NCBI RefSeq assembly: GCF_000384315.1
Contig: NZ_ARVW01000001.1
Coordinates: 5,022,157 to 5,086,156 of the forward strand
Reading direction: 5' to 3'
Origin: Amycolatopsis nigrescens CSC17Ta-90
Lineage (GTDB): Bacteria; Actinomycetota; Actinomycetes; Mycobacteriales; Pseudonocardiaceae
Length of the DNA: 64,000 bases
Shown here: positions 14,103-21,331 of the stretch, in pieces
How the letters are laid out: each line of letters starts with the position of its first letter
Position numbering within the stretch: the stretch's first letter is position 1
Notes under the pieces: model-generated
Seen by the model: the letters and a program-made list of their open reading frames with translations, nothing else
Database searches by the model: none
Told to the model about the DNA's origin: nothing
Translations under genes and position numbers: made by a program

Positions 14103-14131
14103 TTGTCGATTGTTGACAATATTCGTAGCAT
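14103..14131 (+). promoter_or_regulatory. Aldehyde-dehydrogenase promoter with ATTGTTGACAAT operator in the spacer
   Basis: TTGTCG (14103-14108) and TAGCAT (14126-14131, TAnnnT) are 17 bp apart. The palindrome ATTGTTGACAAT fills 14109-14120 inside the spacer. This is the first of three identical operators in the block. Binding there should block both the aldehyde-dehydrogenase and the divergent aminotransferase transcripts. The presumed binder is the GntR/FCD protein at 19.0-19.7 kb. Confidence 0.6.
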
Positions 14132-14171
14132 GGCCTTCGGACCGGCGCAATGAAGCATGAACAGGAGCGGG

Positions 14172-15635
14172 ATGAGCGAGATCAGTGAGACCGGGGTAGT
14201 CGACGCGGTCGGCAAGGACCTGTTCATCGGCGGTAAGTGGACTTCCGCGGCCGGTGGCAGGACGTTCCCGGTGTACGACCCGTCGAACGGCAAAGTGCTG
14301 TGCGAGGTGGCCGACGCCTCGCCGGCGGACGGTGTGGCCGCACTGGACGCGGCGGTCGCCGCGCAGCCGGGGTTCGCCGCCGTCGCCCCGCGCGAACGCG
14401 GTGAGATCCTGCGCCGCGCCTACGAGCTGCTCATCGCGCGCAACGAAGAGCTGGCGCTGCTGATGACGCTGGAGATGGGCAAGCCGCTGGCCGAGGCGCG
14501 CGGCGAGATCACCTACGCCGCCGAGTTCTTCCGCTGGTTCGCCGAGGAAGCGGTGCGCATCGACGGCGGGTACGCGGTCGCGCCGAACGGCAGCGGCCGG
14601 TTCCTGGTCACCAAGCAGCCGGTCGGCCCGACCCTGCTGATCACGCCGTGGAACTTCCCGATGGCGATGGGCGGGCGCAAGCTCGGCCCGGCGATCGCGG
14701 CCGGCTGCACCTCGGTGATCAAGCCCGCCGCGCAGACCCCGCTGTCCATGCTCGCGCTGGCCGGCATCCTGGCCGAGGCCGGGCTGCCGGAGGGGGTGGT
14801 GAACGTGCTGACCACCAGCGACTCCGGCGGGGTGATGGAGCCGCTGATCCGGGACGGCCGGGCGCGCAAGCTCTCCTTCACCGGGTCCACCTCGGTCGGC
14901 CGCAAGCTGCTGGAGCAGAGCGCGGAGAAGGTGCTGCGCACCTCCATGGAGCTGGGCGGCAACGCGCCGTTCCTGGTCTTCGACGACGCCGACATGGACG
15001 CCGCCATCGAGGGTGCGATGCAGGCCAAGATGCGCAACATCGGCGAGGCGTGCACCGCGGCGAACCGGTTCTACGTGCAGCGCGGGGTGGTGGAGGAGTT
15101 CTCCCGGCGGCTGACCGAGCGGATGTCCGCGCTGCCGCTTGGCCGCGGCACCGAGGACGGCGTGGTGGTCGGCCCGCTGATCGACAGGGCCGCGGTGGAG
15201 AAGGTGAGCAGCCTGGTCTCCGACGCCGCCGACCGCGGCGCCAAGGTGCTCACCGGTGGGTCCACTGTGGACGGTCCGGGCAACTTCTACCAGGCGACCG
15301 TGCTCACCGACGTGCCGAAGGACGCCAAGCTGGCCTCCGAGGAGATCTTCGGCCCGGTGGCGCCGATCTCGGTGTTCGACACCGAGGACGAGGCGGTGGC
15401 CGCCGCGAACGACACCGAGTACGGGCTGGTGTCCTATCTGTACACCAGTGACGTGAAGCGCGCGCTGCGCGTCTCGGAGCGGCTGGAGGCCGGCATGATC
15501 GGCCTCAACCAGGGCATCGTGTCCAACCCGGCCGCACCGTTCGGCGGGATCAAGCAGTCCGGCCTCGGCCGCGAGGGCGGCACGGTCGGCATCGAGGAGT
15601 TCCTGGAGACGAAGTACATCGCGGTGAGCCTGTGA
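14172..15635 (+). CDS. NAD(P)-dependent aldehyde dehydrogenase, succinate-semialdehyde dehydrogenase-like
   Basis: From ATG 14172 the protein has 487 residues. AGGAG lies four bases upstream, and an in-frame ATG at 14157 would give five more residues. ALDH signatures are LITPWNFPMAM, FTGSTSVGRKLL, catalytic Glu260 in MELGGNAPFLV and the nucleophile Cys294 in NIGEACTAANRF. The best match is the GabD/succinate-semialdehyde group, which produces dicarboxylates for the TCA cycle. The dehydrogenase gene downstream overlaps the stop (GTGA), so it is the first gene of a two-gene transcript divergent from the aminotransferase. Confidence 0.9.
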   Translation: MSEISETGVVDAVGKDLFIGGKWTSAAGGRTFPVYDPSNGKVLCEVADASPADGVAALDAAVAAQPGFAAVAPRERGEILRRAYELLIARNEELALLMTLEMGKPLAEARGEITYAAEFFRWFAEEAVRIDGGYAVAPNGSGRFLVTKQPVGPTLLITPWNFPMAMGGRKLGPAIAAGCTSVIKPAAQTPLSMLALAGILAEAGLPEGVVNVLTTSDSGGVMEPLIRDGRARKLSFTGSTSVGRKLLEQSAEKVLRTSMELGGNAPFLVFDDADMDAAIEGAMQAKMRNIGEACTAANRFYVQRGVVEEFSRRLTERMSALPLGRGTEDGVVVGPLIDRAAVEKVSSLVSDAADRGAKVLTGGSTVDGPGNFYQATVLTDVPKDAKLASEEIFGPVAPISVFDTEDEAVAAANDTEYGLVSYLYTSDVKRALRVSERLEAGMIGLNQGIVSNPAAPFGGIKQSGLGREGGTVGIEEFLETKYIAVSL

Positions 15636-16693
15636 CGGACTACTACTCGATCGCGGCGATTCCCGGTGACGGGATCGGCGTGGACGTCAGCGTCGAGGCG
15701 CGCAAGGTGCTCGACCGGGCCGCGGAGCTGCACGAGTTCGGTCTGCAGTGGACGGAGTTCGACTGGAGCTGCGAGCGGTACACCCAGACCGGCGCCATGA
15801 TGCCGGAGGACGGGGTGGACCAGCTCGCGAAGTTCGACGGGATCTTCCTCGGCGCGGTCGGTTTTCCCGGTGTGCCGGACCACGTTTCGCTGTGGGGCTT
15901 GCTGATCCCGCTGCGCCGGGCGTTCGCGCAGTACGTGAACCTGCGGCCGGTCCGGCTGCTGCCGGGCACCAGGTCGGTGCTCGAGGGCAGGGACGCGGCC
16001 GAGTTGGAGATGGTGATCGTCCGGGAGAACTCCGAGGGCGAGTACTCGGCCATCGGCGGCAGGCACAACACCGGGCAGGCGAGCGAGTTCGTGCTGCAGG
16101 AGTCGGTGTTCACCCGCGTCGGCGTGCAGCGGATCATCCGGTACGCCTTCGAGCTGGCCCGCACCCGTAGCGGCCGGGTCTGCTCGGCAACCAAGTCCAA
16201 CGGGCTGATCCATTCGATGCCGTACTGGGACGAGAACTTCGCCGAGATCGCGGCGGAGTACCCGGATGTCCAAAGTGAACAGTGCCATGTGGACGCACTG
16301 GCGGCGCGGATGGTGCAGCAGCCGGACCGGCTGGACGTGGTGGTGGCGTCGAACCTGTTCGGCGACATTCTCAGCGACCTGGCGGCCGCGGTCACCGGCG
16401 GGCTCGGCATGGCGCCTTCGGGCAACATCAACCCGCCCGGCGAGTACCCGTCCATGTTCGAGGCGGTGCACGGCAGCGCGCCGGACATCGCCGGGCAGGG
16501 CATCGCCAACCCGGTGGCCCAGGTGCTGGCCGGGGTGATGATGCTCGAACACCTCGGTGAGCCGGTGGCCGCGCGGGCGGTCAACGCAGCGGTGGAGAAG
16601 GTGCTCGCCGACGGCGAGGTGGCCACCCCCGACCTCGGCGGCAAGTCGACCACCGCCGAGCTCGGCACCGCCATCGCCGCCGCCCTCGGCTAG
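15632..16693 (+). CDS. Tartrate dehydrogenase-like member of the isocitrate/isopropylmalate dehydrogenase family
   Basis: The 353-residue enzyme has IAAIPGDGIGVDV at the N-terminus, VRENSEGEYSAIGG in the substrate-phosphate loop region, KSNGL (catalytic Lys), NLFGDILSDLAAAVTGGLGMAPSGNI (metal Asp residues) and FEAVHGSAPDIAGQGIANP in the NAD site. The ENSEGEYS form is typical of tartrate/D-malate dehydrogenases rather than LeuB. It probably oxidises and decarboxylates a 2-hydroxy-dicarboxylate using NAD and Mn/Mg. The GTG start overlaps the aldehyde-dehydrogenase stop, and a perfect hairpin follows. Confidence 0.87.
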   Translation: MTDYYSIAAIPGDGIGVDVSVEARKVLDRAAELHEFGLQWTEFDWSCERYTQTGAMMPEDGVDQLAKFDGIFLGAVGFPGVPDHVSLWGLLIPLRRAFAQYVNLRPVRLLPGTRSVLEGRDAAELEMVIVRENSEGEYSAIGGRHNTGQASEFVLQESVFTRVGVQRIIRYAFELARTRSGRVCSATKSNGLIHSMPYWDENFAEIAAEYPDVQSEQCHVDALAARMVQQPDRLDVVVASNLFGDILSDLAAAVTGGLGMAPSGNINPPGEYPSMFEAVHGSAPDIAGQGIANPVAQVLAGVMMLEHLGEPVAARAVNAAVEKVLADGEVATPDLGGKSTTAELGTAIAAALG

Positions 16694-16721
16694 CGCCACC
16701 GGCGATTTCGCAGGTCAACGC

Positions 16722-20461: not shown

Positions 20462-20473
20462 ATTGTTGACAAT
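20462..20473. promoter_or_regulatory. ATTGTTGACAAT operator (second copy)
   Basis: An identical 12-bp palindrome 36 bp upstream of the racemase-like/GntR transcript. On the minus strand, TAGGAT just upstream could serve as a -10, so the site would cover the start of transcription. Predicted autoregulation site. Confidence 0.58.
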
Positions 20474-20500
20474 CCTACTAGATGGCTACTAATCAGTCAC

Positions 20501-21241
20501 CTAGGAGACTTCCCGCAGCCAGCTCCCCTCGCCCACGACCGGCAGTTCCATCCGCTTCAGGCAGGCCCACATGGTGAGCTGGTTGGCGGTCAGCACCGGC
20601 TTGCCGAGGCGCTTCTCCAGCGGCCCGATCAGGTCGTAGGTGGGCAGGTTGGTGCAGCTGACGAAGATCGCCTCGGCGTCCGGATGGTCCGCGCTGAGGA
20701 TGCGCTCGGCGATCGTGCGGTAGCTGACCTTCCAGATCCCGCCGCCGAGGCCGAGGTGGTCGCTGGACACCGTCCGCACGCCCAGTTCCAGCAGGAAGGC
20801 GTGCAGGCTGCTGGTCAGGTCGGCGTCATACGGGGTGATCACCGAGACGCGTTCCAGGTTGAGCTGCTGCAGTACCTCGGCGAGCGCGCCGGAGGTGGTC
20901 ACCGCGTCCGGCGCGCCGGCGTCGCAGATCGCCTTGCACAGCGAGCGCTCGTAGTCCACGCCGTTCACGAAGCTGCCCGACGTGCACAGGTACGCCACCA
21001 CTTCGGGCTCCACGTGCAGCACGTCCCTGGTCGCGGCCGCGAGGTGCGCGCTGTTGCTGACCAGCTGCGCCATTTCCATGCTCACCGGCACCGGCTCGTA
21101 CGGTGTGCGGGCGAGATGCAGGGAGACCTCCATCGGCACCCAGCGCCAGAGCTCGCGCTCCAGGGCCAGGTCGAAGGGGGCGATCACGCCGATACCTCGT
21201 TGCGCGAGCGGCCCGTCGAAGTCCAGAAAATCCAAATCCAA
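20501..21241 (-). CDS. Asp/Glu racemase-maleate isomerase superfamily protein, both cysteines present
   Basis: The 246-residue paralogue of the preceding gene keeps both catalytic cysteines: VAYLCTSGSFVNG in the first lobe and AIFVSCTNLPTYDLI in the second. The same tail GKPVLTANQLTMWACLKRM is present. This pattern fits maleate cis-trans isomerase or an aspartate/hydantoin racemase. The two paralogues lie in tandem with separate promoters, each preceded by an ATTGTTGACAAT site. The start at 21241 lies 58 bp from the operator. Confidence 0.85.
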   Translation of the reverse strand: MDLDFLDFDGPLAQRGIGVIAPFDLALERELWRWVPMEVSLHLARTPYEPVPVSMEMAQLVSNSAHLAAATRDVLHVEPEVVAYLCTSGSFVNGVDYERSLCKAICDAGAPDAVTTSGALAEVLQQLNLERVSVITPYDADLTSSLHAFLLELGVRTVSSDHLGLGGGIWKVSYRTIAERILSADHPDAEAIFVSCTNLPTYDLIGPLEKRLGKPVLTANQLTMWACLKRMELPVVGEGSWLREVS

Positions 21242-21298
21242 GGCTCAGTCCCCAGGGTGCGGGTGAAGAAGGAGTGGCCTCCGGGGGTGCTTCCTCGG

Positions 21299-21331
21299 AT
21301 TGTTGACAATCATACGAGCGACTCCTAGCGT
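21299..21331 (+). promoter_or_regulatory. Promoter of the D-2-hydroxyacid dehydrogenase gene with third ATTGTTGACAAT operator
   Basis: The palindrome at 21299-21310 contains a perfect -35 TTGACA (21303-21308). After 17 bp, TAGCGT (21326-21331) fits the TAnnnT -10. Transcription would begin at about 21338, the first base of the GTG start, so the message is probably leaderless. No Shine-Dalgarno sequence is visible. The divergent racemase-like gene shares the operator. Confidence 0.58.

Follow-up and report, generated by a model that had tools for sequence, protein, structure and literature searches.

Closest described systems

PrpR (PA0797) of Pseudomonas aeruginosa is a GntR/FCD repressor of the methylcitrate operon; its motif, ATTGTCGACAAT, is a prediction from cross-genome footprinting, its own upstream region was shifted in an electrophoretic mobility shift assay, and its mutant was derepressed (PMC9765439; here and below, statements on published systems refer to the excerpts considered of each paper). 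In the FadR subfamily, surveyed presumably by Suvorova and Rodionov (2015; PMC4494728), operators follow a TKGT/ACMA box rule, with a 2-nt GT-AC spacing in several groups. For Atu1419 from Agrobacterium fabrum, an FCD protein and VanR-type repressor, identical short palindromes are situated over the -10 box, or between the -10 and -35 boxes, of the targets (PMC7797058). Here we describe a comparable system from a 64,000-nt stretch of the genome of Amycolatopsis nigrescens CSC17Ta-90 (contig NZ_ARVW01000001.1, positions 5,022,157 to 5,086,156; hereafter the window, whose numbering is used unless another sequence is named). It comprises three copies of a 12-nt palindrome, ATTGTTGACAAT, and the gene of an FCD-type GntR protein (GntR, 19010-19717), which very probably is an autoregulated repressor of 11 genes acting through the operator ATTGTYRACAAT at these three places.

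The regulator shares with PrpR the 12-nt palindrome (a predicted one in the case of PrpR), the combination of GntR and FCD domains, an operator before its own gene and, presumably, the repressor role. PrpR, however, controls prp genes, and no prp-type Pfam family appeared among the cluster proteins scanned here. All three sites in the window read TTGT-2-ACAA and fit the FadR-subfamily rule, 2-nt spacing included, and no group with this gene content is named in the part of the survey considered (PMC4494728). The Atu1419 system is alike in the position of its sites, but differs in its operator, ATGTATACAT, and in its target, hydroxycinnamate degradation (PMC7797058). Given the PrpR palindrome and the FadR groups with 2-nt spacing, both the mechanism and the class of operator are already known, and an initial annotation of the window, made from the sequence alone, was right in holding that FCD regulators use short palindromes of this shape. 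No description of this regulon was found in the literature searched by operator strings and gene set, the papers containing the operator strings being covered in part.

Operator sequence, conservation and predicted promoters

Exact copies of the palindrome ATTGTTGACAAT stand at 14109, 20462 and 21299, each with a G before it on the + strand, as first annotated. The absence of any other exact copy, noted then for the window, extends to the whole 9.11-Mb genome (one contig), in which these three are the only ones and the backwards control had 0 matches. An order-1 model built from the window predicts 4e-4 exact copies in the window and 0.06 in the genome, so that the motif is not frequent at random sites; the genome-wide count and these expectations rule out a chance repeat. 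Four copies with one mismatch exist in the genome, at 4020645, 4495272, 5085635 (63479 in the window) and 6945232, and the first of them, the only one viewed closely, lies within a long open frame. With up to two mismatches the window holds 8 matches, namely the three palindromes, each counted once per strand, and the sites at 22138 and 63479, versus a mean of 0.54 and a maximum of 3 in shuffled sequences; the two-mismatch site at 22138 is inside a D-2-hydroxyacid dehydrogenase gene (HADH, 21338-22312, + strand). A plasmid search with 121 bases around the site at 14109 gave no match.

We designated the sites O1 (21299-21310), O2 (20462-20473) and O3 (14109-14120). Their intergenic position, also part of the initial annotation, stood, although in two forms: O1 and O3 lie between divergent genes, AmdB and HADH in the first case and an aminotransferase (AT) and an aldehyde dehydrogenase gene (ALDH) in the second, whereas O2, the putative autoregulatory site, separates AmdB from the AmdA-GntR unit, AmdB and AmdA both being on the - strand.

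A scan with the GntR protein, whose nearest named relatives are mostly from Amycolatopsis, a genus of the Pseudonocardiaceae, yielded 67 loci. We used the 61 whose piece contains the cluster, or as much of it as fits there, and left out L098-L101, L103 and L104, where GntR is a distant match and the cluster is missing. O1 reads ATTGTCAACAAT (towards AmdB) in 61/61 relatives, including L086, which has no AmdB and whose site was assigned to O1 by a cross-match. The O2 core, TTGTNNACAA, is found in 56 of the 61, with a perfect ATTGTYRACAAT in 46 of those. O3 was testable in 55 relatives, because six fetched pieces lack one of its two flanking genes, and is present in all 55 (54 perfect). Sequence conservation falls outside the operators and the promoter elements.

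The sites overlap predicted promoters, which are consensus matches and not mapped start sites. That of HADH, TTGACA-17-TAGCGT (21303-21331, + strand), has its -35 box within O1 and includes conserved columns; the GTG start of HADH is ~7 nt past the predicted -10 box, and the transcript is possibly leaderless. On the - strand, the -10 box of the predicted AmdB promoter, TTGACA-16-TATGAT (21309-21336), overlaps O1, and that of the predicted AmdA-GntR promoter, GTGACT-17-TAGGAT (20472-20500), overlaps O2. O3 fills the spacer of the predicted ALDH promoter, TTGTCG-17-TAGCAT (14103-14131, + strand); the promoter scan output none for AT. Sought anywhere in each locus and on both strands, these patterns were found in 61/61 (HADH, loose pattern), 60/61 (AmdB, the exception being L090), 38/61 (AmdA, as TA[GA]GATTGTYRACAA) and 32/61 (ALDH) of the relatives.

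The TTGACA of ATTGTTGACAAT in O1 can be the -35 box of HADH, with a 17-bp spacer, and the repeat could thus be mainly a -35 box, kept by promoter conservation and served by no dedicated regulator. We regard this as highly improbable: O2 reads ATTGTCGACAAT in 35 of its 56 sites, without TTGACA but with both half-sites kept; the site overlaps a -10 box at AmdB and AmdA and falls in the spacer at ALDH; and operator presence tracks the GntR gene, as detailed below. A pure -35 box as the sole explanation was rejected on half-site conservation and promoter positions.

Since the sites overlap promoter-like elements, repression is likely. GntR would bind the ATTGTYRACAAT palindrome at O1, O2 and O3, that of its own gene included, and would then cover the -35 box of HADH, the -10 boxes of AmdB and AmdA and the spacer of ALDH, blocking RNA polymerase. 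The regulator might instead activate some of the units, as in promoters of the importer gene ehuB from relatives the operator appears, when read by eye, upstream of a TTGACA box and not over it. This is rather unlikely, however, given that the three sites in the window overlap predicted core promoter elements, as expected of a repressor, and that the similar sites of PrpR and Atu1419 serve repression (PMC9765439, PMC7797058).

The GntR regulator and its link to the operator

The GntR/FCD gene reported initially was confirmed: the frame at 19010-19750 (- strand; likely start ATG 19717, overlapping the end of AmdA) encodes both Pfam domains above their gathering scores (PF00392, 69.8 bits; PF07729, 87.8 bits), and its product is predicted to bind the operator. 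In the FCD part, His155, His199 and His221 are conserved in 81/81 homologues (in residue counts, alignments below 48% identity were left out). Three such His form a metal site in HypR/TM0439 (PMC6608401), and those of GntR are putative metal-binding residues of the FCD pocket, as assigned by reading and not by structural alignment. FadR-subfamily proteins bind small carboxylic acids (PMC4494728); a small carboxylate in this pocket may release GntR from its sites, and the likely biology would be the breakdown of an amino-acid-derived solute. The window contains a second GntR-like gene (43438-44091), 34% identical to the first and with no operator copy nearby.

Among 297 genomes of the family, GntR is present in 169 and ATTGTYRACAAT in 207; the exact operator occurs in 169/169 genomes with GntR versus 38/128 without it, and its backwards control at most once per genome. 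At least one exact operator was also found in all of 20 regions, drawn from the 169 genomes, whose GntR is 56-65% identical. Outside the family, 41 searched genomes have a GntR match, and the exact operator is present in 20/20 of those fetched, a sample that omitted most of the weakest GntR matches; in two of them (L181 and L183) GntR is the only cluster gene accompanying the operator. More telling than the genome table is genus g31, where AT is on another contig and has an exact operator ~20 bp upstream of the coding match in 4/4 GntR-bearing genomes. In another genome of this genus, G132, there is no GntR at 1e-40, and the AT site reads ATTGTCGATGAG, with one half-site kept and one lost; this co-loss is one case.

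The sites could also be bound by another regulator, either a different GntR-like protein, of which the genome has 22 further matches (E<=1e-8), or the TetR protein encoded within the cluster. We consider this quite improbable, since the TetR gene has no match in the 61 relatives, the nearest GntR paralogue of the genome is 39% identical, and the co-occurrence and the case of co-loss favour the local GntR. Nevertheless, the same motif also adjoins other GntR-like genes in relatives, and so the motif alone does not identify the regulator.

Several further observations weigh against the explanation by GntR. O2 is absent in 5/61 relatives. The motif exists in at least one genome of 11 of the 14 genera without GntR, and the two-by-two table overstates significance because relatives share ancestry. 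Elsewhere in G132 three exact copies persist, and for two of these the piece also contains a distant GntR-like gene. In two g38 genomes, GntR and ALDH are accompanied by one operator; Amd genes are absent from the piece, and a close AT is lacking. We also fetched two samples of the operators existing outside the cluster, with 19 and 14 usable pieces. The first contained one unlinked aminotransferase gene (L144) and five GntR-like genes, and the rest had no explanation; in the second, six pieces (L230-L235) share a Glu/Leu/Phe/Val-dehydrogenase gene, L240 has a GntR-like gene, L236 a gallate-type cluster, and six are unexplained. The L236 site (5380 of that piece) separates a major facilitator superfamily (MFS) gene from a 4-oxalomesaconate tautomerase/aldolase cluster, and the operator is therefore probably used by another pathway too.

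The reading as one GntR regulon, already made in the initial annotation, is supported by sequence comparison, through the uniqueness of the operator, its conservation, the co-occurrence, the site kept at AT on another contig and the co-loss, and by the like motif published for an FCD protein. The proposed dimensions were too small: the regulon comprises 11 genes instead of up to nine, and spans ~14.6 kb (9192-23780) instead of 12 kb, with a TetR/MFS pair inside this span that probably does not belong to it.

Genes and predicted transcription units

Judged by gene spacing, there are probably five transcription units: AmdB; AmdA-GntR; HADH-AMI; ALDH-TTC; and AT-DUF3830-FAD oxidase-TPP enzyme. 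AmdA (19710-20426, - strand) and AmdB (20501-21241, - strand) are Amdase/EutA-like proteins. AmdA has one conserved Cys, invariant in 79/79 homologues, and a PDTA motif at the place of the second of the two conserved Cys of AmdB, which is kept in 76/77. Profile matches identify HADH, the amidase AMI of PRK06169 type (22368-23780, + strand), ALDH, which resembles succinate-semialdehyde dehydrogenase (SSADH; 14157-15635, + strand), the class III aminotransferase AT (12814-14070, - strand) and a GlcD-like FAD-linked oxidase (10742-12274, - strand). TTC (15632-16693, + strand) belongs to the tartrate dehydrogenase family, above the curated cut-off. The DUF3830 protein (12299-12799, - strand) has a solved homologue, 3kop, named 'Uncharacterized protein', and no paper on this family turned up in a full-text literature search. 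Finally, the thiamine-diphosphate (TPP) enzyme (9192-10745, - strand) passes PRK07586, named acetolactate synthase; its nearest solved proteins are benzoylformate decarboxylases, and it scores 203 bits versus a cut-off of 493 for that enzyme.

The divergent genes for TetR (- strand) and a DHA2-type MFS exporter (+ strand) occupy 16768-19013; their best models, QepA and LfrA, are both below cut-off. There is no TetR match in the 61 relatives, three of whose pieces end less than 1 kb from GntR, and no MFS gene behind GntR; the sole MFS match, in L045, is on the far side of the cluster. Having no counterpart at that place, the pair was rejected as a member of the regulon; it is probably not regulated by GntR and resembles an insertion under separate regulation. 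As to transporters in the cluster of close relatives, the frames of three loci were listed (L038, L072 and L080).

Putative substrate of the pathway

Clusters for ectoine degradation in Sinorhizobium meliloti and R. pomeroyi have the composition ehu/ueh-eutABCDE-ssd-atf (PMC5924519). They are like the regulon described here in their EutA-like proteins, an aminotransferase, an SSADH-like dehydrogenase and, in some of them, a hydroxyacid dehydrogenase; their EhuABCD-type importer has a counterpart in some relatives of our strain. In contrast, they are regulated by EnuR, of MocR type (PMC5924519), whereas the regulator here is an FCD-type GntR, and the present genome lacks an EutD over cut-off and an EutE.

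An ectoine-type pathway is the best lead because in some relatives exact operators precede ehuB or a pair of dehydrogenase and ectoine synthase (EctC) genes. Locus L178, which comes from a different family, has exact operators before an importer, with a binding protein and an ATPase scoring over the EhuB and EhuA cut-offs, and before a ProP-like symporter gene, below its cut-off. EhuB is over cut-off in 143/297 family genomes. Of the 30 best-scoring EhuB loci, 9 (genera g25 and g26) have an exact operator 180-230 bp upstream of the EhuB match, and the other 21 are without it. In genus g43, the operator precedes a Glu/Leu/Phe/Val-dehydrogenase gene, with a second EctC gene behind it, in 3/3 sampled genomes (L222, 5908-7839; L223; L224); this link came from comparing incomplete lists of places, and further cases may exist. 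The genome of A. nigrescens itself carries EctC, and EutA is the best NCBIfam match of both AmdA and AmdB. The substrate could well be ectoine, hydroxyectoine or a close relative, a proposal to which we give nearly even chances, degraded by a putative route without the usual ring-opening enzyme EutD.

In L230-L235 (five g25 genomes and one g13 genome), the gene downstream of the operator is 68-74% identical to the dehydrogenase gene of L222; there is no EctC gene beside it, and the opposite side is occupied by an amidohydrolase gene. The ehu-like operon of our strain (L214, 6260-11765; G000:C1:5151259-5156764) adjoins a methylmalonyl-CoA-mutase-like gene, and L215 and L218 likewise have a gene of this kind close to ehuB. 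The distance between the GntR and ehuB genes, with 26 of 39 tabulated same-contig pairs within 200 kb, was not counted as evidence, because old synteny explains their closeness equally and the sample is partial (55 of 152 EhuB genomes tabulated, 16 of the 55 having both on different contigs).

A number of results speak against ectoine. The EutA scores of AmdA (118 bits) and AmdB (100 bits) are far below the cut-off of 318. EutD is over cut-off in 0/297 family genomes; none of its 8 weaker matches (1e-60) belongs to our strain, whose genome also has no match to the EutE deacetylase. The EctC of H. elongata is described as lacking the reverse, ring-opening activity (PMC5924519). The EhuB of our strain is 31-34% identical to operator-linked EhuBs and has no exact operator, and only G130, one of the nine operator-bearing EhuB loci, has an operator at ehuB among 14 searched g25, g26 and g13 genomes.

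The grouping of an amidase, racemase-type Amd proteins, HADH, the FAD oxidase, a TPP enzyme closest to benzoylformate decarboxylases and ALDH would also agree with a 2-hydroxyacid route in place of ectoine, in which an amide would be converted to a hydroxyacid, racemized, oxidized to the oxoacid, decarboxylated by the thiamine-dependent enzyme and oxidized as aldehyde; we presume here a resemblance to the mandelate pathway. Such a route appears doubtful, though it deserves some weight, because among the 20 more distant loci with a 56-65% identical GntR (pieces of 14-17 kb) TTC is present in 1 and the FAD oxidase and the TPP enzyme in 0, and because the operator-linked importers of some relatives are of ectoine type.

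Implications

Through these results, a gene set that recurs across relatives in the Pseudonocardiaceae and in other actinobacterial families gains a predicted operator, a putative regulator and a proposed regulon of 11 genes. In some relatives, the operator ties ehuB-type importers and a solitary EctC to this gene set, and there is therefore a testable guess as to the substrate. The putative ectoine clusters of Gram-positive bacteria are without direct biochemical confirmation, according to the part of PMC13188858 considered. We tentatively suggest, with somewhat more doubt than conviction, a widespread actinobacterial FCD-GntR regulon that would degrade ectoine, hydroxyectoine or one of their close derivatives by a route independent of EutD and EutE. 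Taking part in it would be a couple of one-Cys and two-Cys EutA-like proteins, an amidase, a DUF3830 protein and a hydroxyacid dehydrogenase. If this is true, bacteria carrying ectoine synthase could recycle or scavenge ectoine.

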